From contig NZ_CP059493.1 of the NCBI RefSeq assembly GCF_014042015.1, positions 558,001 through 622,000 on the forward strand: 64,000 nucleotides of DNA, written 5' to 3'. Below, piece by piece: positions 48,424 to 62,347 of the stretch; positions within the stretch are counted from its first letter, which is position 1; each line of letters starts with the position of its first letter. The notes under the pieces are model-generated. The model saw only the letters and a program-made list of their open reading frames with translations, made no database searches and was not told the origin of the DNA. Made by a program: the position numbers and the translations under genes. This DNA comes from Actinotalea sp. JY-7876 (GTDB lineage: Bacteria; Actinomycetota; Actinomycetes; Actinomycetales; Cellulomonadaceae).

Positions 48424-49551
48424 TCAGATGGTGATGCGGGCGCCGCTCGCGGACGAGAAGGCGTGGGTCTCACCCGGGCGGATGGCCACCCAGAGCGTGT
48501 CGCCCTTCATGGGCACCTGGCGCGGGTCTACGCGCACGATGACCTGCGCTTCACCGGCACCCGAGTGGATCTCCTTGGCGGCCGCGCCGGCGCCGGCGAG
48601 CTCGCCGTAGACGAACGCGTCGGAGCCGAGCTCCTCGACCAGGACGACCTTGATCGGGATCGCGCCCTCGTTGGCCTGCGTGACGATGTCGAGCGACTCG
48701 GGACGGAAGCCGAGCGTGACGTGCCCCTTGTCCTCGGGCTTGATCGCGCTGATGATGCTGCGCTCGAGCGGGATGCGCGTCTGGCCCAGCTGCGCGGCGC
48801 CGTCGGACACCTGGAACGAGCCGATGTTCATCGCGGGCGAGCCGATGAAGCCGGCGACGAAGACGTTCGCCGGGGTGTCGTACATGTCGCGCGGCGTGCC
48901 GACCTGCTGCAGGACGCCGTCCTTGAGGACCGCGATGCGGTCACCCATGGTCAGGGCCTCGGTCTGGTCGTGCGTGACGTAGACCGTGGTGACGCCCAGG
49001 CGGCGCTGGAGCGAGGCGATCTGCGTACGCGTCTGCACGCGGAGCTTGGCGTCGAGGTTCGACAGCGGCTCGTCCATGAGGAACACCTGCGGCTGGCGCA
49101 CGATGGCGCGGCCCATGGCCACACGCTGACGCTGACCGCCGGAGAGCGCCTTCGGCTTGCGGTCGAGGTACTCGGTGAGGTCGAGGATCTTGGCGGCCTC
49201 CTCGACGCGCTTGCGGATGTCGGCCTTGGGGGTGCCGGCGATCTTCAGCGCGAAGCCCATGTTGTCCGCGACGGACATGTGGGGGTAGAGGGCGTAGTTC
49301 TGGAACACCATCGCGATGTCGCGGTCCTTCGGCTGGACGTCCGTGACGTCGCGGTCGCCGATGAGGATGCGGCCGGAGTTGACGTCCTCCAGGCCGGCGA
49401 GCATGCGCAGCGAGGTCGACTTGCCGCAGCCCGAGGGGCCGACGAGGACGAGGAACTCGCCGTCCTCGATGTGCAGGTCGAGCGCGTCGACCGCGGGGCG
49501 CTCGGTGCCGGGGTAGACCCGGGATGCCTTGTCGTACGTGACCGTGGCCAT
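48424..49551 (-). CDS. msiK: multiple-sugar ABC transporter ATPase MsiK/UgpC
   Basis: 375 aa: Walker [27 protein letters not shown], Walker B VFLMDEPLSNLDAKLR, and a C-terminal TOBE/OB regulatory region. Its isolation from any permease gene fits MsiK, the shared ATPase for many sugar importers (cellobiose, maltose, xylobiose) in actinobacteria. ATG 49551 follows GGAGGGATCG; the codon five upstream is less likely. Confidence 0.92.
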   Translation of the reverse strand: MATVTYDKASRVYPGTERPAVDALDLHIEDGEFLVLVGPSGCGKSTSLRMLAGLEDVNSGRILIGDRDVTDVQPKDRDIAMVFQNYALYPHMSVADNMGFALKIAGTPKADIRKRVEEAAKILDLTEYLDRKPKALSGGQRQRVAMGRAIVRQPQVFLMDEPLSNLDAKLRVQTRTQIASLQRRLGVTTVYVTHDQTEALTMGDRIAVLKDGVLQQVGTPRDMYDTPANVFVAGFIGSPAMNIGSFQVSDGAAQLGQTRIPLERSIISAIKPEDKGHVTLGFRPESLDIVTQANEGAIPIKVVLVEELGSDAFVYGELAGAGAAAKEIHSGAGEAQVIVRVDPRQVPMKGDTLWVAIRPGETHAFSSASGARITI

Positions 49552-49732
49552 GTTCGATCCCTCCACCGGCAGGTACGTGCCGGACGATCCGTCGTGATGG
49601 GAGTGTCAGGTGTCGACCTCGACACCGGCACGTGGACGTGGACCGTGTGGTCCGTGTCACGCGTGCGACGGGCTCATCCTGCCACACGGCGAGCGGGACC
49701 CGCGACGAGCCCGGGCGGCTCTCCGGCGGTCC

Positions 49733-57195: not shown

Positions 57196-57350
57196 TCCCG
57201 GCTGTTCTGGCGTGAGTTGGTGGCGCGTGGTGTTGCCGCCGATGGGCGCGGTCCTTGAGGCGCGGTTCATCGACCGGTACGAGCGGGTCGCGGCCTTGAG
57301 GCCAGCTGGCGAAGCCGGCGCGATGGTAGGAGCAGCGGACCTTCTGTCAG
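57196..57350. other. non-coding gap with possible gene debris
   Basis: No convincing gene. One short stretch (57201-57240) reads FWRELVARGVAA in the plus strand, faintly like the N-terminus of some transposases, then stops. Nothing else is supported. Confidence 0.3.
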
Positions 57351-57635
57351 TCACGGACGCCCAAGGCGGATCGCGCTAGCGAGCATGTCTTCGAGAACGT
57401 CCGGCTTCAGCGCGGTCGTCGCCCACAGGTCGAGCCGCTCCCCGGGCACCTTCAGCGCGTCGCGAAGGGTGAGCAACGTCCACAGCGACCCGACGGTCTC
57501 GCCGCTGAGGTCGATGAGGAGGTCGACGTCCGAGGTCGGGCCGAACGGGCCCGGAAAGCCCTGGCGCGATAGGGCGAGGAGTTCGCAAGGGCCGGACAGC
57601 GCTGACTCGGGGCCTGGCCCACGCCCTCGCGCCAT
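57351..57635 (-). pseudogene. MNT-type nucleotidyltransferase remnant
   Basis: The C-terminal two thirds match minimal nucleotidyltransferases of HEPN/MNT toxin-antitoxin pairs: TSDVDLLIDLSGETVGSLWTLLTLRDAL, then LDLWATTALKPDVLEDMLASAIRL. SDVDLLID supplies the metal Asp pair. The upstream signature GSxARG that should precede it is missing; instead the frame reads LSRQGFPGPFGPTSDVDL. No HEPN partner follows. I regard it as an inactivated remnant; the proposed start (57635) is arbitrary. Confidence 0.6.
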
Positions 57636-57796
57636 GTTCGGCACCCGCGTTAGATCTCCGGTCTCGACGGCTCCTCTGCAGCCCGAGCCAACAGGCTGGC
57701 AGTCGTTCAACCTCGAAGTCTCCTCAACGGTCGCTTGCCCCCGTCCCAGGCTCTCGTGTCACGCACTGCAGAGAACCGCACTCCTGACACGGGCGT

Positions 57797-57862
57797 GGCG
57801 GCTCTTGCGGAGAGTGCTCCGATCGGGTGAGCGCGGGTGTCGGGATTGCCCAGGGCGGTCCC
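57797..57862 (+). repeat. 66-bp direct repeat, right copy
   Basis: Second copy of 56271-56336, 1,526 bp downstream and in the same orientation, one mismatch. It is followed not by a tRNA but by unrelated sequence. The first seven bases reproduce the 3' end of the tRNA-Thr (GGCGGCT). Confidence 0.9.
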
Positions 57863-57869
57863 CCGTGTC

Positions 57870-57887
57870 CTGTGAGGTGCCTCACAG
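57870..57887. promoter_or_regulatory. palindrome CTGTGAGG-TG-CCTCACAG
   Basis: Perfect 8-bp arms with a 2-nt centre, 8 bp beyond the right repeat and about 190 bp upstream of the first secreted-protein gene. The size and symmetry suit a dimeric regulator's operator. The rest of 57888-58073 shows no gene; AAGGA at 58060-58064 is the ribosome-binding site of the next gene. Confidence 0.5.
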
Positions 57888-58073
57888 ATCGGCTGTCGAG
57901 GTGCAGGTCGCAGCGTCGGGGCCGGCCGGGCTCGGGAGAATCTCAGCGCCGGGTTCAAGTGACGGCACCCACCGTCCGATGTGCCTGGTGACCGGCCACC
58001 CACCGGTCGTCCCCCCACTGCGAGCAGCGCGCCCCCACGTGCTGCCGCCGCCCGACTCGAAGGACACACCCCC

Positions 58074-58469
58074 ATGGCTTCTGCACGCCGTAAGTCCGCC
58101 GCCATCGCCCTCGCCGTCGTCGGCGTCGCGGGCCTCTCTCTCGCGTCCGCGTCGACGCTCAACGTCAGCGGCGGCACGATCCAGGCCGGTACGACCACGA
58201 GCGCGTCGTGCGACGCCGACGGCGTCCAGGCGAAGTTCACGTCGAGCTACGCCGCCGCGCCGACGAACGCGTACAAGGCCGACACCCTGACGATCTCCGG
58301 CATCGACGCCGCGTGTGCGGACGGCGACATGCGGGTCTCGGTCGTGGCCGACAAGACGACCGTCGAGTTCACGGCGACGAAGATCGGGCAGACGTGGACC
58401 TCCACGGCGATCAGCCCGGTCATCCCGGCCGCGGAGATCAAGTCCGTCGCCGTCGTCATCACCAAGTGA
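58074..58469 (+). CDS. small secreted protein of the SipW-linked cassette
   Basis: 131 aa. A basic start (ARRK), hydrophobic core and probable cleavage after Ala24-Ser25-Ala26. The mature part begins STLNVSGGTIQAG. Two cysteines, Cys46 and Cys81, lie in CDADG and GIDAACADGD and probably pair. The domain from 46 on aligns with the 61195 gene product, including Cys spacing and the ending with Val/Ile-Ala/Pro-Glu-x-V-x-V-V-I. Next to a SipW-like peptidase it resembles biofilm-fibre or surface proteins in context only. Confidence 0.75.
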   Translation: MASARRKSAAIALAVVGVAGLSLASASTLNVSGGTIQAGTTTSASCDADGVQAKFTSSYAAAPTNAYKADTLTISGIDAACADGDMRVSVVADKTTVEFTATKIGQTWTSTAISPVIPAAEIKSVAVVITK

Positions 58470-58500
58470 CCCACTGAGTCGCTGAGCTGACCCGCACGTC

Positions 58501-59079
58501 GTGTCGGGCAGGCCGGGTGCGCACGCGGCCGGCGCGGGAACCCCGCGCCGGCTGCTGCGCCGCGCCGGCGACGTGGTGCTCGCGCTCGTCGGCGTCACGC
58601 TCGCGTGGCTGCTGTGGCCGTCCTCGCTCGGGGGCTGCACCACGCTGACGATCGTCTCGGGCGACTCGATGCTGCCCACCTACCAGACCGGTGACCTCGT
58701 GGTCTCGCGCTGCGGCCCGGTCGAGGTGGGTGACGTCATGGTCTACCGGCCGGACGGCTTCGGCGGTTCGCGCATCATCCACCGGGTCATCGGCGGGGAC
58801 GCCGCGGGCTGGGAGCTCCAGGGTGACAACAACGACTGGGTCGACCCCTTCGAGCCTGCGGGCGAGGAGGTGCTGGGCACGGCGGTGCTCCACCTGCCCC
58901 ATGTCGGCGGGATCGCGTCGATCTTCCTCAGCCCGCTGACCTGGGTCTCCGTGCTGGTGATCGCCGGCGCGTCCCTGCTGTGGCCCTCGAAGGACGACCC
59001 TCCCGACGGTGGTGCAGGCGACGCCGCGGACGCGGCGCCGGTCCAGCCCGAGCAGGTTCCGGTCGGGGCGCCGCGCTAG
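58501..59079 (+). CDS. signal peptidase I, SipW/ER type
   Basis: 192 aa. N-terminal membrane helix (about 24-42), catalytic Ser56 in VSGDSMLPTYQTGDLV, then His94 in RIIHRVIGGD where typical bacterial enzymes have Lys. The Ser/His dyad marks the archaeal/ER/SipW class. GDNNDWVDPFEPAG is box E. A second membrane helix (about 142-160) and an Asp/Pro-rich tail follow. SipW-class enzymes process matrix or surface proteins encoded beside them, as here. Start GTG has no clear ribosome-binding site. Confidence 0.88.
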   Translation: MSGRPGAHAAGAGTPRRLLRRAGDVVLALVGVTLAWLLWPSSLGGCTTLTIVSGDSMLPTYQTGDLVVSRCGPVEVGDVMVYRPDGFGGSRIIHRVIGGDAAGWELQGDNNDWVDPFEPAGEEVLGTAVLHLPHVGGIASIFLSPLTWVSVLVIAGASLLWPSKDDPPDGGAGDAADAAPVQPEQVPVGAPR

Positions 59080-59126
59080 AGGGCACGGAGCAGGTCAACA
59101 GCATGGTCGAGAAGGGAGGGGACGAC

Positions 59127-59894
59127 GTGAGGAAGCGCTTCGCGGTCGTCGTCGTCCTCCTGGTGGCTGTGCTCGGCAGCGCGACGCTCGGGAGCGCCTC
59201 CTCGCTCACCGTCAGGGGCGGGGTCATCGACGCCTTCACGGCCTCGCGCCCGTGCGGCGACGGCGCGGGCGCCACGGTGAGCGACCCGGCCGCGACGACG
59301 CAGACGCGGGTGCGCCTCACGGTGCCCGCCGACTGCGTCGGCCGACGGCTCCAGCTGACCCTGGTCGACGCCTCCGGCGCCGCGAAGCACGCAGCGAGCG
59401 TCGTCCTGGCCGCGCAGGTGCAGGACGTCGTCGTCCCCGCGTACCAGCCGTCCGCGGGTGTCCGGGTGCACGCGACGGTCGACGGTTGGAACCTGGCCAC
59501 GACGTGGACGTACGCGCCGCCGGTCACGTGCCGGATCGTCGACAACCCCGCGGCCACCTGCACGGCCGTCGTCACCGAGGTGGCGGACCGCTCGTGGTTC
59601 GCCGACCCGAAGCGTCGCAGCTTCACGGTCGTCGTGACCTCGCCCTCGACGCCCGGCGGGGCGTGGGAGCTGGTCTACGACCTGGCGCACCCCGTCTTCG
59701 GGGGCACGCCGGAGGTCCTCTGGGGGCCGTCCAACGTCGCGGCGCAGACCGGCTGCGCGCAGCGCCCGACCTTCGTGCTGCGCGGCACGGGGAACATCCG
59801 CACGGTGTCGGCGGGTCAGCAGCGCTCCGTCGTCCTGATGGCAGACAGCTGGACGGACATCTTCGGGAGCAGGAACATCCTGCGGTGCTCGTGA
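59127..59894 (+). CDS. secreted cysteine-rich protein of the SipW-linked cassette
   Basis: 255 aa. Signal peptide (RKRF then a long hydrophobic core) with cleavage near GSA/SSLTVRGG. The mature N-terminus SSLTVRGGVIDAF closely mirrors STLNVSGGTIQAG of the 58074 product, suggesting a shared recognition element. The body is beta-rich with six cysteines. GTG 59127 is preferred over ATG 59103 because GGGAGGG stands 6 nt before it. No family recognised. Confidence 0.75.
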   Translation: MRKRFAVVVVLLVAVLGSATLGSASSLTVRGGVIDAFTASRPCGDGAGATVSDPAATTQTRVRLTVPADCVGRRLQLTLVDASGAAKHAASVVLAAQVQDVVVPAYQPSAGVRVHATVDGWNLATTWTYAPPVTCRIVDNPAATCTAVVTEVADRSWFADPKRRSFTVVVTSPSTPGGAWELVYDLAHPVFGGTPEVLWGPSNVAAQTGCAQRPTFVLRGTGNIRTVSAGQQRSVVLMADSWTDIFGSRNILRCS

Positions 59895-59919
59895 TCCAGC
59901 CGGGACCCTGCTGCGGGGC

Positions 59920-60801
59920 TCAGCGCTCCACCGGCGTGAGCTCGGGCCGCTTGGGCCGCCGTGCGTCACCGCTGGACCGGCGCCGCAGGCGTCGCGTCGC
60001 CCACGGGTAGGCGTGCTCGCGGAACCACTCCGCGTCCTGCTGGACGCGCGCCGCGAGCGGCACGGGCGGCAGCGGCGTGAGCGGGTCGTCCCAGGCGGCG
60101 TCGTCGGGCTCGAGCCCCAGGCCGACCAGGGCCGCCTGCGCGACGCGCCGGTGCCCCTCGGTCGTGAGGTGGATCCGGTCCGGCGCCCACATGCGCCAGT
60201 CGCGAAGCGAGCGCATCCCCCACACGTCCGCCACGTAGGCGCCGTGCTTGCGTGCGATCGACCAGATGTGCGCGTTGTAGACGCCCGCACGCCACCGCGT
60301 GCGCCGGACGACCGGGCTGTCCTTGGCGTCCATGCCGGTCGCGAGCAGCACGTCGACGCCGGCCGCCCGCAGCCGCGCGACGGCCGCCTCGAGGCGTTCC
60401 GCGAGCACGTCGGGGTCCGCCGCCGGCCGGAGCATGTCGTTGCCCCCGCCGACGACGCTCACGAGGTCCGGACGCAGCTCGAGGGCGGCCGGCACCTGCT
60501 CGCGCAGGATCGGCTCCAGGAGGCGACCCCGCACGGCGAGGTTGGCGTACTGCACCGGGGCGTCGCCCTGCCCGATGCCGGCGCGCTCGGCCAGGTGCGC
60601 GGCCAGCAGGTCCGCCCAGCCCCGGCACACGAGCGTGGGGTCGACGGCGGTGGTGGTGGTCGGCGGGGCACCCCCGGGGACGTCCCACAGGCCCTCGGTG
60701 AACGAGTCGCCCAGCGCCACGTAGCGGCGCCACGGCGCGGTGCGGCCCGGCGGTGCGGTCGGCTGCTCGTCGTCGCCGTGCGGCGTCCGGGTGAATTCCA
60801 C
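59920..60801 (-). CDS. SGNH/GDSL-type esterase
   Basis: 293 aa. Block I YVALGDSFTEGLWD holds the catalytic Ser; block III GGGNDM and the C-terminal DRIHLTTEGHRRVAQ with Asp and His complete the set. There is no signal peptide. The GTG at 60801 has GGGAGG upstream and CACACT 7 nt away; a start at 60828 is possible. Such enzymes deacylate or de-esterify small molecules or polysaccharides. It sits opposite in orientation to the secreted-protein cassette. Confidence 0.88.
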   Translation of the reverse strand: MEFTRTPHGDDEQPTAPPGRTAPWRRYVALGDSFTEGLWDVPGGAPPTTTTAVDPTLVCRGWADLLAAHLAERAGIGQGDAPVQYANLAVRGRLLEPILREQVPAALELRPDLVSVVGGGNDMLRPAADPDVLAERLEAAVARLRAAGVDVLLATGMDAKDSPVVRRTRWRAGVYNAHIWSIARKHGAYVADVWGMRSLRDWRMWAPDRIHLTTEGHRRVAQAALVGLGLEPDDAAWDDPLTPLPPVPLAARVQQDAEWFREHAYPWATRRLRRRSSGDARRPKRPELTPVER

Positions 60802-60899
60802 GCCTCCCAGTGTGCGCCGATGCGACACAGACGCCCAATCCGGGCGCGGAGCCGGAAGGGGGGCTGGACCGCCGGCGTGTGATGGGTCACTCTTGGCTC

Positions 60900-60977
60900 G
60901 TCAGCGACAAGGGCAAACCCACCGCGAGGTGGGGACGCAAAGCCACGGGACCCCTCGGGTCAGCCGGGCCACCGAAC
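60900..60977 (+). ncRNA. cyclic di-GMP-I riboswitch (GEMM)
   Basis: The conserved GEMM core is complete: AGGGCAAACC, stem CCACC/GGTGG (60919-60923, 60928-60932) capped by the GNRA tetraloop GCGA, then GGGACGCAAAGCCACGG, a second hairpin GACCC-CTC-GGGTC (60949-60961), and AGCCGGGCCACCG. This class binds c-di-GMP. It lies in the leader of the 61195 secreted-protein gene. Whether it acts as an on or off switch is not evident. Confidence 0.92.
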
Positions 60978-60989
60978 GTGAGGTCCACC

Positions 60990-61082
60990 ATGAGCAGCAC
61001 GCTTCCCGTGCGATCCGGCTCCACTCCTCTGTGCCACGACGCCGCGCGCGTCCCCCTCGGCCTCGGCCTACCCGCCTCCTGA
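60990..61082 (+). CDS. 30-codon leader ORF behind the riboswitch
   Basis: ATG AGC AGC ACG opens a 30-aa frame (MSSTLPVRSG...PLGLGLPAS) 13 nt after the riboswitch, with GTGAGGT upstream as a weak ribosome-binding site. Its TGA lies inside the first downstream hairpin. Translation could couple ligand binding to folding of the hairpins. The peptide has no known family and may be non-functional itself. Confidence 0.4.
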   Translation: MSSTLPVRSGSTPLCHDAARVPLGLGLPAS

Positions 61083-61171
61083 GCACGTTCTCAGGACGCT
61101 TCCCGCACGCCCCCGGGCGTGCGACCGCCGGCAGGACGTCGGCGCAGGGGATCACCGGACGGATCCGGTGA
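61078..61171 (+). other. three consecutive hairpins in the riboswitch leader
   Basis: Stems CCTGAG/CTCAGG (61078-61095), CGCACGCCC/GGGCGTGCG (61104-61123) and TCACCGGA/TCCGGTGA (61152-61171). The last ends 24 nt before the ATG. They are candidates for the riboswitch's expression platform, as transcription terminator or ribosome-access structures. Confidence 0.6.
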
Positions 61172-61194
61172 CGTGGACCACCAGGAGGGTGGAG

Positions 61195-61593
61195 ATGGAT
61201 CGACGGACGAGGAAGGCGGCATCGGTCGCACTCGTGGCGCTCGCCCTGGTGGGCGTGCGGACGGCGTCCGCGGCCGGGGTCGACCTGGGGGGTCAGCAGG
61301 TCCTGGTGGGGGAGGACGGGGTGCAGGGGTGCAGCTCGTCGCAGATCGAGGTCCGGTACGACGTCGCCTACGACGCCGCACTGCAGGGATACGGCGTGAG
61401 CGGGGCCCGGCTGTCGGGGCTGGACACCGCTTGCGAGGGACACGACGTGGTCGTGACCCTCAGCGGGCCCGGGGGGGTCGCGCTGGCCGAGCTGTCCGCA
61501 GTGATCGGTGCGTCGGAGACGACGGTCCCGGTGCCGGCGAACGTGCCGGTGCCGGCTGAGGAGCTCACGGGGGTGAGCGTCGTCCTCAGCTAG
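61195..61593 (+). CDS. secreted protein under c-di-GMP riboswitch
   Basis: 132 aa paralogue of the 58074 product. Signal peptide [25 protein letters not shown], then Cys46 in VQGCSSSQ and Cys80 in [10 protein letters not shown] at nearly identical positions to its relative, and the closing [14 protein letters not shown]. The start follows AGGAGGGTGGAG. The last 8 nt overlap the convergent ung gene. Its regulation by c-di-GMP suggests a role in attachment or biofilm, by inference. Confidence 0.78.
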
Positions 61594-62347
61594 TTCGCGG
61601 TCGCAGGACCGCGGCGCCCGACGTGGCGCCGTCCCCTGGGGAGGGGGCGGCGCCGGTCGGTCGGGTCTGCTGGTCGGGGGACCAGCGCACGGGAGGCGCG
61701 CCCTGCTCGGCGAGCAGCGCGTCGACGCGGGAGAACGGCCGGGAGCCGAAGAAGCCCCGGGACGCCGAGAGCGGGCTGGGGTGCGCGCTCTCGACCACGG
61801 GGACGCCCCCGAGCAGCGGGCGGACCTGCTGCGCGTCGCGGCCCCACAGGAGGGCGACGAGCGGCCCGCCCCGTTCCACGAGCGCCGTGACGGCGCGGTC
61901 GGTGACGTCCTGCCACCCGAGGTGCCGGTGCGAGCCCGGTGCGCCGGTGCCCACGGTGAGGACCCGGTTGAGGAGCAGGACGCCCTCCTGCTCCCAGTCG
62001 CTGAGGTCGCCGTCGGGCCCGCGCACGACGCCGACGTCGTCCGCGAGCTCGCGGTGGATGTTCTGCAGCGAGCGGGGCAGCGGGCGCACCCCGGGCGCCA
62101 CCGAGAAGGACAGGCCGACGGCGTGCCCGGGCGTCGGGTACGGGTCCTGGCCGATGACGAGCACGCGGACGTCCGCCATGGGCCGCGCGAACGCGCGCAG
62201 GACGGCGTCGGGGGCCGGGAGCCAGGCCCGGCCGGCCGCGGACTCCGCGCGCAGCGCGTCGCCGATCTCGCGCAGCCGCAGCTCGACCGGTGCGAGGGCC
62301 GCGGCCCAGTCCGGGGCCATGAGCGCGTCGAGGGGCTGACGGATCAC
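61586..62347 (-). CDS. ung: uracil-DNA glycosylase (family 1)
   Basis: 253 aa DNA repair enzyme removing uracil. The catalytic water-activating motif [17 protein letters not shown], then the Leu-loop [18 protein letters not shown], define family 1. The C-terminal 25 residues are an unconserved tail. TAGGGT (62359-62354 on the minus strand) stands 6 nt before the GTG, a leaderless start. Confidence 0.95.

Follow-up and report, generated by a model that had tools for sequence, protein, structure and literature searches.

A SipW-type signal peptidase cassette in Actinobacteria and the leader of a putative subunit gene with a c-di-GMP aptamer and candidate CsrA hairpins

In Bacillus subtilis, the tapA-sipW-tasA system encodes, in one direction, a secreted protein, a signal peptidase of the SipW class and a secreted β-protein (PMC13082335), and the N-terminal strand of TasA that results from cleavage acts as a donor (PMC10151520). 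In the sipW-bsaABC system of Clostridium perfringens, both secretion and polymerization of a small protein are SipW dependent and proceed without a sortase (PMC7395162). Here, we describe an actinobacterial cassette that resembles these systems, in a window of 64,000 nucleotides (nt) from Actinotalea sp. JY-7876 (NZ_CP059493.1, positions 558,001 to 622,000), whose genome is a single contig (G000:C1). It consists of three co-directional genes for a secreted protein (S1), a signal peptidase and a larger secreted protein (T), and of a fourth gene for an S1 paralog (S4), whose leader carries a cyclic di-GMP (c-di-GMP) aptamer and hairpins that resemble binding sites of CsrA. The likeness of its secreted proteins to TasA filament subunits comes from predicted folds. 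Unlike in tapA-sipW-tasA, to which no sequence relation was found, the S proteins share two invariant Cys and are about 105 residues long once mature, the hosts are actinobacterial, and one subunit has a leader with a c-di-GMP aptamer and CsrA-like hairpins. By analogy, the cassette probably works like the SipW–TasA systems of Firmicutes, although its sequences do not place it among them. It also differs from sipW-bsaABC, which is regulated by a two-component system and temperature, in that S and T match no family (they were not compared with BsaA itself).

The S4 leader likewise has partial counterparts. In hag, the B. subtilis flagellin gene under CsrA–FliW control, CsrA has two sites, one of them over the Shine–Dalgarno sequence, and the Escherichia coli moaA leader, an apparent molybdenum cofactor (Moco) riboswitch, brings together an aptamer and CsrA, which binds inside the aptamer and activates (PMC7652899). 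Riboswitches acting via a short upstream open reading frame (ORF) are known in mycobacteria (PMC12810186), and in the Mbox and B12 leaders of Mycobacterium tuberculosis, an aptamer and a short ORF precede the real gene (PMC12810186; PMC11260477). The S4 leader differs from hag by its target, a putative secreted surface subunit, by having up to three hairpins and by the c-di-GMP aptamer upstream, from moaA by hairpins that lie by the start codon, the first of them about 150 nt 3′ of the aptamer, and from the M. tuberculosis leaders by the type of its aptamer, an unconserved upstream peptide and the extra CsrA-like hairpins. In the openly available literature, we found no description of the cassette or of CsrA sites paired with a c-di-GMP aptamer, and the openly available papers on SipW in Actinobacteria or Cellulomonas and on c-di-GMP riboswitches in Cellulomonas do not describe the cassette in the parts at hand. 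On balance, we lean modestly towards reading this locus as a SipW-type surface-subunit system like tapA-sipW-tasA, made of unnamed families, in which S4 is gated by c-di-GMP and by CsrA–FliW.

S1 (58074 to 58469, + strand) is a 131-residue secreted protein with Cys46 and Cys81, the peptidase (58501 to 59079, +) has Ser56 and His94 together with Asp109 and Asp115, and T (59127 to 59894, +, with an alternative in-frame ATG start at 59104) is a 255-residue secreted protein. The peptidase is of the Ser/His class typified by SipW and the endoplasmic reticulum (ER) enzymes, since S56-M-x-P, H94-R, D109 and D115 are invariant in 28 aligned homologs and its profile matches SEC11 subunits, with an expect value (E) of 1.5e-13 for SEC11C. 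It scores 51.4 bits against TIGR02228 (signal peptidase I, archaeal/ER type), slightly under the curated cut-off of 51.85, and just 25.6 bits against NF046067, the Bacillus SipW model with a cut-off of 190. As in a TapA–SipW–TasA type system, the operon holds an ER/SipW-class peptidase flanked by co-directional secreted proteins.

We then asked how constant this arrangement is. When 150 genomes of the family were searched with S1, 43 matched and 37 were kept; the six set aside (G034, G048, G064, G087, G090 and G117, with E from 0.0027 to 0.0082) were chance frames or lacked confirmation. The peptidase is present at 34 of the 37 S loci; the other three are L052, where the region ends at a contig edge, L053, which has a lone S4, and G022, whose contig begins at S1 and where T was found and the peptidase was not. 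A scan for the peptidase across 84,980 species gave 133 relatives, and in the 79 loci represented by the best 80 of these, S is the gene immediately before the peptidase in 78 and T is present in 68 by each of two counts or in 75 by either, with three of the remaining four ending at a contig edge. Since the peptidases used to build the query were themselves S-linked, and many species recur from among the 37 S loci, these loci are not an independent sample of SipW peptidases. The cassette of a peptidase plus surface proteins is strongly supported by this synteny. Named hosts include Cellulomonas, Actinotalea, Pengzhenrongella, Sanguibacter, Flavimobilis, Demequina and Arthrobacter, as well as Cellulosimicrobium, Georgenia, Microbacteriaceae and Propionicimonas. 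Within the order, 24 of 297 genomes have a match to the S profile, and in a sample of the phylum 7 of 296 do (the genome under study is included in both); in distant actinobacterial lineages, the peptidase profile is found alongside S genes in five of seven regions (six genomes), with arrays of up to four S genes. One such array, of four tandem S-type genes near a SipW-class peptidase, is at L193:6886-8790. The S–peptidase–T cassette occurs twice in one genome (G082, L070).

S4 (61195 to 61593, +) is a 132-residue secreted protein that is 27% identical to S1 over 90 positions, with an E of 3e-6 in a single comparison, and has Cys46 and Cys80. Both Cys columns, as well as the Ala at position −1 of the cleavage site, are invariant in an alignment of 70 S sequences. 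Columns 3 to 126 of the T profile align with the S profile (hhalign probability of 98.8, E of 1e-16), and because the N-terminal domain of T is homologous to S, the products of the genes at 58074 and 59127 share the mature N terminus S-[ST]-L-x-V-x-GG. Three T proteins (L046, L047 and L069) are longer, with about 344 to 363 residues and an extended, differing C-terminal part after the same S-like N-terminal domain. In Pfam and NCBIfam, no family scores above its cut-off for S1, T or S4, and the 70 S and 35 T members give stray matches to unrelated families, each in one or two members. Judged from their sequences, S and T represent two families of secreted proteins that have not been described before and that accompany a SipW-class peptidase in several lineages of a single phylum.

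Predicted structures are consistent with these proteins being subunits. AlphaFold gives β-sandwich domains for S and T, with a mature N terminus that is conserved but unfolded. In S1, an immunoglobulin (Ig)/fibronectin type III–like core is predicted at about residues 45 to 131, with AlphaFold block means of 92 to 95 for residues 51 to 130, and the mature N terminus (27 to 44) is unfolded in the model, with means below 50 at 26 to 30 and 32 to 34. T has a second β domain behind its S-like one, and its mature N terminus is less sharply set off (60 and 67). The conserved hydrophobic alternation at the mature N terminus of S extends to residues 36 to 39, which is 10 to 13 past the cut. Folds of this kind with a free N terminus are what would be expected of TasA-like donor-strand filaments, which makes such an assembly plausible but is no proof of it. 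An earlier note on this DNA, made from the sequence of the window, had described the same genes at the same coordinates, clustered around a Ser/His peptidase of the SipW/ER class, with paired-Cys paralogs at 58074 and 61195 and a mature N terminus common to 58074 and 59127, all of which was borne out on re-examination. Its suggestion of surface fibers used in attachment gains plausibility from the structure prediction that it had proposed as a check, even though neither S nor T found a meaningful fold match; fiber and attachment themselves continue to be conjectural.

S4 stands apart from the other cassette genes. Between T and S4 in the Actinotalea-type genus is a conserved syntenic neighbor on the opposite strand (59920 to 60828, −) that, from its motif, we take to encode an SGNH-type hydrolase. 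It is followed by a c-di-GMP-I-GGC riboswitch aptamer (60903 to 60977, +), which scores 65.1 bits with RF03167, whose gathering score is 59; across 57200 to 61700, Rfam gave nothing else at or above the gathering score, just weak, implausible matches with E up to 5. An aptamer lies 201 to 300 nt before S4 in 13 of the 37 loci, namely the 12 same-genus loci that have the family and G022, although the RF03167 search covered 47 genomes and its filters were stricter, so that weak aptamers elsewhere may be missed. The 12 riboswitch-led S4 genes of the genus unite in a tree (95/97). Control of the whole cassette by c-di-GMP was considered and rejected, as there is no aptamer at S1, the peptidase or T. 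The putative control by c-di-GMP is confined to a single subunit, and almost to a single genus, rather than being shared by the whole system. The earlier note was thus right to place one gene behind a c-di-GMP-I riboswitch, and S4 is the only gene so placed, but its picture of a system tuned by c-di-GMP does not extend to the cassette; of the two linkages by which it would have its proposal judged across homologs, that to the peptidase is common (34 of 37 loci) and that to the riboswitch is not (13 of 37), an outcome that goes half against the proposal. Its account of the S4 leader included the aptamer and missed the two kinds of element described next.

Directly 3′ of the aptamer is an upstream ORF of 30 codons (60990 to 61082, +). 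Its ATG lies 13 to 16 nt behind the aptamer-closing CCGAA in all 13 S4 leaders, the ORF has 23 to 43 codons in 12 of the 13, and its stop lies 105 to 126 nt before S4 in 12 of the 13, at a spacing of 112.7 ± 6.1 nt. Between this stop and S4, the leader in the window has three A(N)GGA hairpins: A (61126 to 61144, +) with the loop AGGAC, B (61152 to 61171, +) with the loop ACGGAT, which is of the ANGGAN type, and C (61178 to 61192, +) with the loop AGGAG, which covers the S4 Shine–Dalgarno sequence and has weaker counterparts in other leaders. These loops recall the consensus for CsrA, RUACARGGAUGU with GGA in a hairpin loop, and the ANGGAN hexaloop in the structure with RsmE (PMC7652899).

We quantified such hairpins with a strict rule, a loop A[N]GGAN on at least four Watson–Crick pairs. 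There are 20 across 10 of the 13 S4 leaders, with at least two in 8 of 13, against a mean of 0.26 and a maximum of 2 in 500 shuffles, and when one mismatch is allowed, 12 of the 13 leaders have hairpins. Over 1,756 strand-kb of these genomes, the strict rule gave 0.111 hairpins per kb. Two hairpins come within 80 nt of each other in 13 cases, and 10 of these 13 closely spaced pairs sit directly before S4, in 8 loci. Other cassette leaders have next to none (S1 0/34, peptidase 0/35, middle S genes 0/7, T 1/24); the genus S4 class of this leader comparison comprised 16 genes, because the 13 riboswitch-led S4 were joined there by two middle S genes from L061 and by an S1 from L073 that begins its contig. 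In 10 aligned leaders, the stem of hairpin A varies with its loop core kept, 83% of the cells being paired, and its covariation of 0.459, compared to 0.185, was not reached in any of 500 shuffles. A second, partly overlapping set, from which 45 sequences were omitted as duplicates, has hairpins at 9 of 26 S genes behind the peptidase (two of the nine, L091 and L111, are from genomes already counted), 1 of 56 S1 and 3 of 74 T. S4-type genes of other genera, which have no riboswitch, carry a hairpin in 7 of 18 cases. From their sequences, the tandem A(N)GGA hairpins are candidate CsrA sites, and CsrA-like control of S4 appears to be more widespread than the riboswitch and may for that reason be the older of the two, the riboswitch being perhaps a later addition in the one genus where the SGNH gene separates S4 from the operon.

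Both regulators are encoded in this genome, with csrA at G000:C1:64603-64758 in the flagellar-chemotaxis cluster and fliW also present. Flagellin leaders served as an internal positive control. Among 24 flagellin loci, 18 starts were recognized (including L168 and L169), the six without a flagellin-type start being left uncounted, and all 18 have an A(N)GGA hairpin 41 to 48 nt upstream as well as a GGA-bearing ribosome site. In 26 genomes in which csrA was sought, a hand count found strict hairpins in 11 of 17 S4 genomes with csrA and in 1 of 3 without; in G022, which is 90% complete, neither csrA nor flagellin was found and the leader has no hairpin. Flagellin and S4 are put forward as concrete, sequence-based candidates for CsrA targets in Actinobacteria, on which we found no study in the openly available literature. 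Two close A(N)GGA hairpins also lie between csrA and a cheA-like gene, at the start of the latter (L167:6902-6926; G000:C1 near 64901-64926), where CsrA control is possible.

In the mechanism that we favor, S1, T and S4 would be exported by Sec, and the linked SipW-class peptidase would cut after the invariant Ala, freeing the conserved N terminus (A/S-x-L-x-V/L ... L/I-x-A-G). This N terminus, which has no place in the modeled monomer, would most likely dock as a strand into the next subunit to give a thin surface filament, with S1 and S4 as one-domain subunits and T, with its two β domains, as base, tip or cross-linker. S4 would be a second, separately controlled subunit. In its leader, the aptamer would gate translation of the short upstream ORF, with a c-di-GMP switch of either polarity, and CsrA would block S4 translation, as it does at flagellin, by binding to the two or three A(N)GGA hairpins, including the one that holds the Shine–Dalgarno sequence. 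Because the leader combines an aptamer-gated ORF with CsrA hairpins, S4 production would depend both on c-di-GMP and on the flagellar FliW–CsrA checkpoint: if CsrA represses, S4 synthesis would coincide with the sequestration of CsrA by FliW, i.e., with flagellin export, and would be subject to c-di-GMP via the upstream ORF. One role for S4 might be that of a variant subunit, altering an S1/T surface structure as cells pass from swimming to attachment. If the S4 leader does read both c-di-GMP and CsrA, it would tie attachment to swimming, and a leader with these three elements makes attachment–motility coordination testable at the level of RNA. We entertain only tentatively, and with more doubt than belief, the fuller proposal of an undescribed class of donor-strand filaments, thinly spread in Actinomycetota and with a SipW peptidase of its own, in which the mRNA of one subunit integrates c-di-GMP (via the upstream ORF) and FliW–CsrA, so that the choice to swim or attach is made on a single leader RNA.

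Several observations weigh against parts of this mechanism. On the protein side, filament formation is argued by analogy, with no family or fold match. Neither TasA/camelysin nor another SipW-substrate family nor a pilin in Pfam or NCBIfam matches S or T, and sequence searches of the PDB gave chance matches, with E from 0.3 to 1. Foldseek found nothing at E ≤ 0.001 for S (best E of 0.17), and its single match for T, an integrin at 6e-4 with a template modeling (TM) score of 0.16 over the query, is not meaningful; TasA and pilins are absent among the matches listed (50 per list), which excludes nothing. The S match is absent in 5 of 17 same-genus genomes in the S1 search. On the RNA side, several S4-linked aptamers score under the Rfam gathering score, and the upstream peptide is not conserved in sequence. 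Stop distances in other frames are scattered, yet the frame-1 control is weak, since its stops are mostly TGA overlapping ATGA. That the upstream ORF pairs with the start of S4 was rejected as a general feature, the pairing being significant only in G000 (z of −3.56) and L059 (−2.28), with a mean of −0.60 over 12. The hairpin over the Shine–Dalgarno sequence is strict in only 4 of 13 S4 leaders, strict hairpins are absent from those of L061, L064 and L073 (imperfect ones occur in the first two), and 11 of the 18 S4-type genes of other genera have none. Some stems have 6 to 9 pairs, longer than in most CsrA ligands obtained by systematic evolution of ligands by exponential enrichment (SELEX), which have four or fewer contiguous pairs (PMC7652899). 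In G139, hairpins are present and csrA was not found, in an assembly of 840 contigs.

Could S and T instead be soluble or wall-bound small Ig-like proteins, i.e., adhesins, lectin-like or enzyme-modulating proteins, whose N terminus is only a recognition tail for the peptidase? Their folds are generic, their polymerization is what we infer, and conservation beside a cleavage site could serve the peptidase alone, yet the hydrophobic alternation runs well past the cut, the tandem S arrays and the sets of one- and two-domain proteins resemble subunit families, and SipW substrates of B. subtilis (PMC10151520) and C. perfringens (PMC7395162) polymerize. We regard this as a serious possibility, if one on the lesser side of even. 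It seems unlikely, on the other hand, that the riboswitch and S4 are unrelated to the operon, S4 having been recruited elsewhere (flagellar or cell wall) with the cassette as a mere chromosomal neighbor. Such a separation would fit the position of S4 beyond an inverted SGNH gene in the genus, the tree in which S4-type genes are apart from S1-type ones with weak support (92/70; 138 columns) and the G038 region, where S4 is the sole cassette gene found, but in other genera S4-type genes follow T or the peptidase and are co-directional with them, and S4 retains the signal and Cys pattern of the cassette.

The leader hairpins might also have another role, in Rho-dependent or other attenuation, RNA stability or occlusion of the ribosome site, with GGA loops that are incidental to Shine–Dalgarno-like sequence. 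The CsrA sites are putative, the S4 leader folds more strongly than shuffles (z of −3.6), as such a role would have it, and hairpin C overlaps the Shine–Dalgarno sequence, which is itself GGA rich. Hairpins A and B, however, are also of the A(N)GGA type, with stems that covary and a loop core that stays, the same signature is found in every flagellin leader counted and is nearly absent from other cassette leaders, and it is missing in G022, a genome in which csrA and flagellin were not found. We hold such another role to be quite improbable.

Five further c-di-GMP-I matches are present in the genome, one above and four under the gathering score, and four of these aptamers are closely followed by a start codon. 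Going by motifs, we assign two of the five to BldC-like genes and one each to an EAL gene, a gene for a 391-residue secreted protein and, by the chemotaxis cluster, an ORF of 49 codons. Those at L080:8235-8530 and L082:7674-7997 (both under the gathering score) are directly before the BldC-like small regulators, and that at L081:8110-8349 (also under it) is before the 49-codon ORF, where the flagellar-chemotaxis cluster ends. Scans of 57700 to 61700 for consensus promoters and terminators found nothing. The 3′ end of S4 overlaps by 8 bases (61586 to 61593) that of a gene on the opposite strand (61586 to 62347, −), presumably one for a uracil-DNA glycosylase-like protein. Elsewhere in the window, an msiK RNA motif scores above its gathering score at 49551 to 49609 (−).

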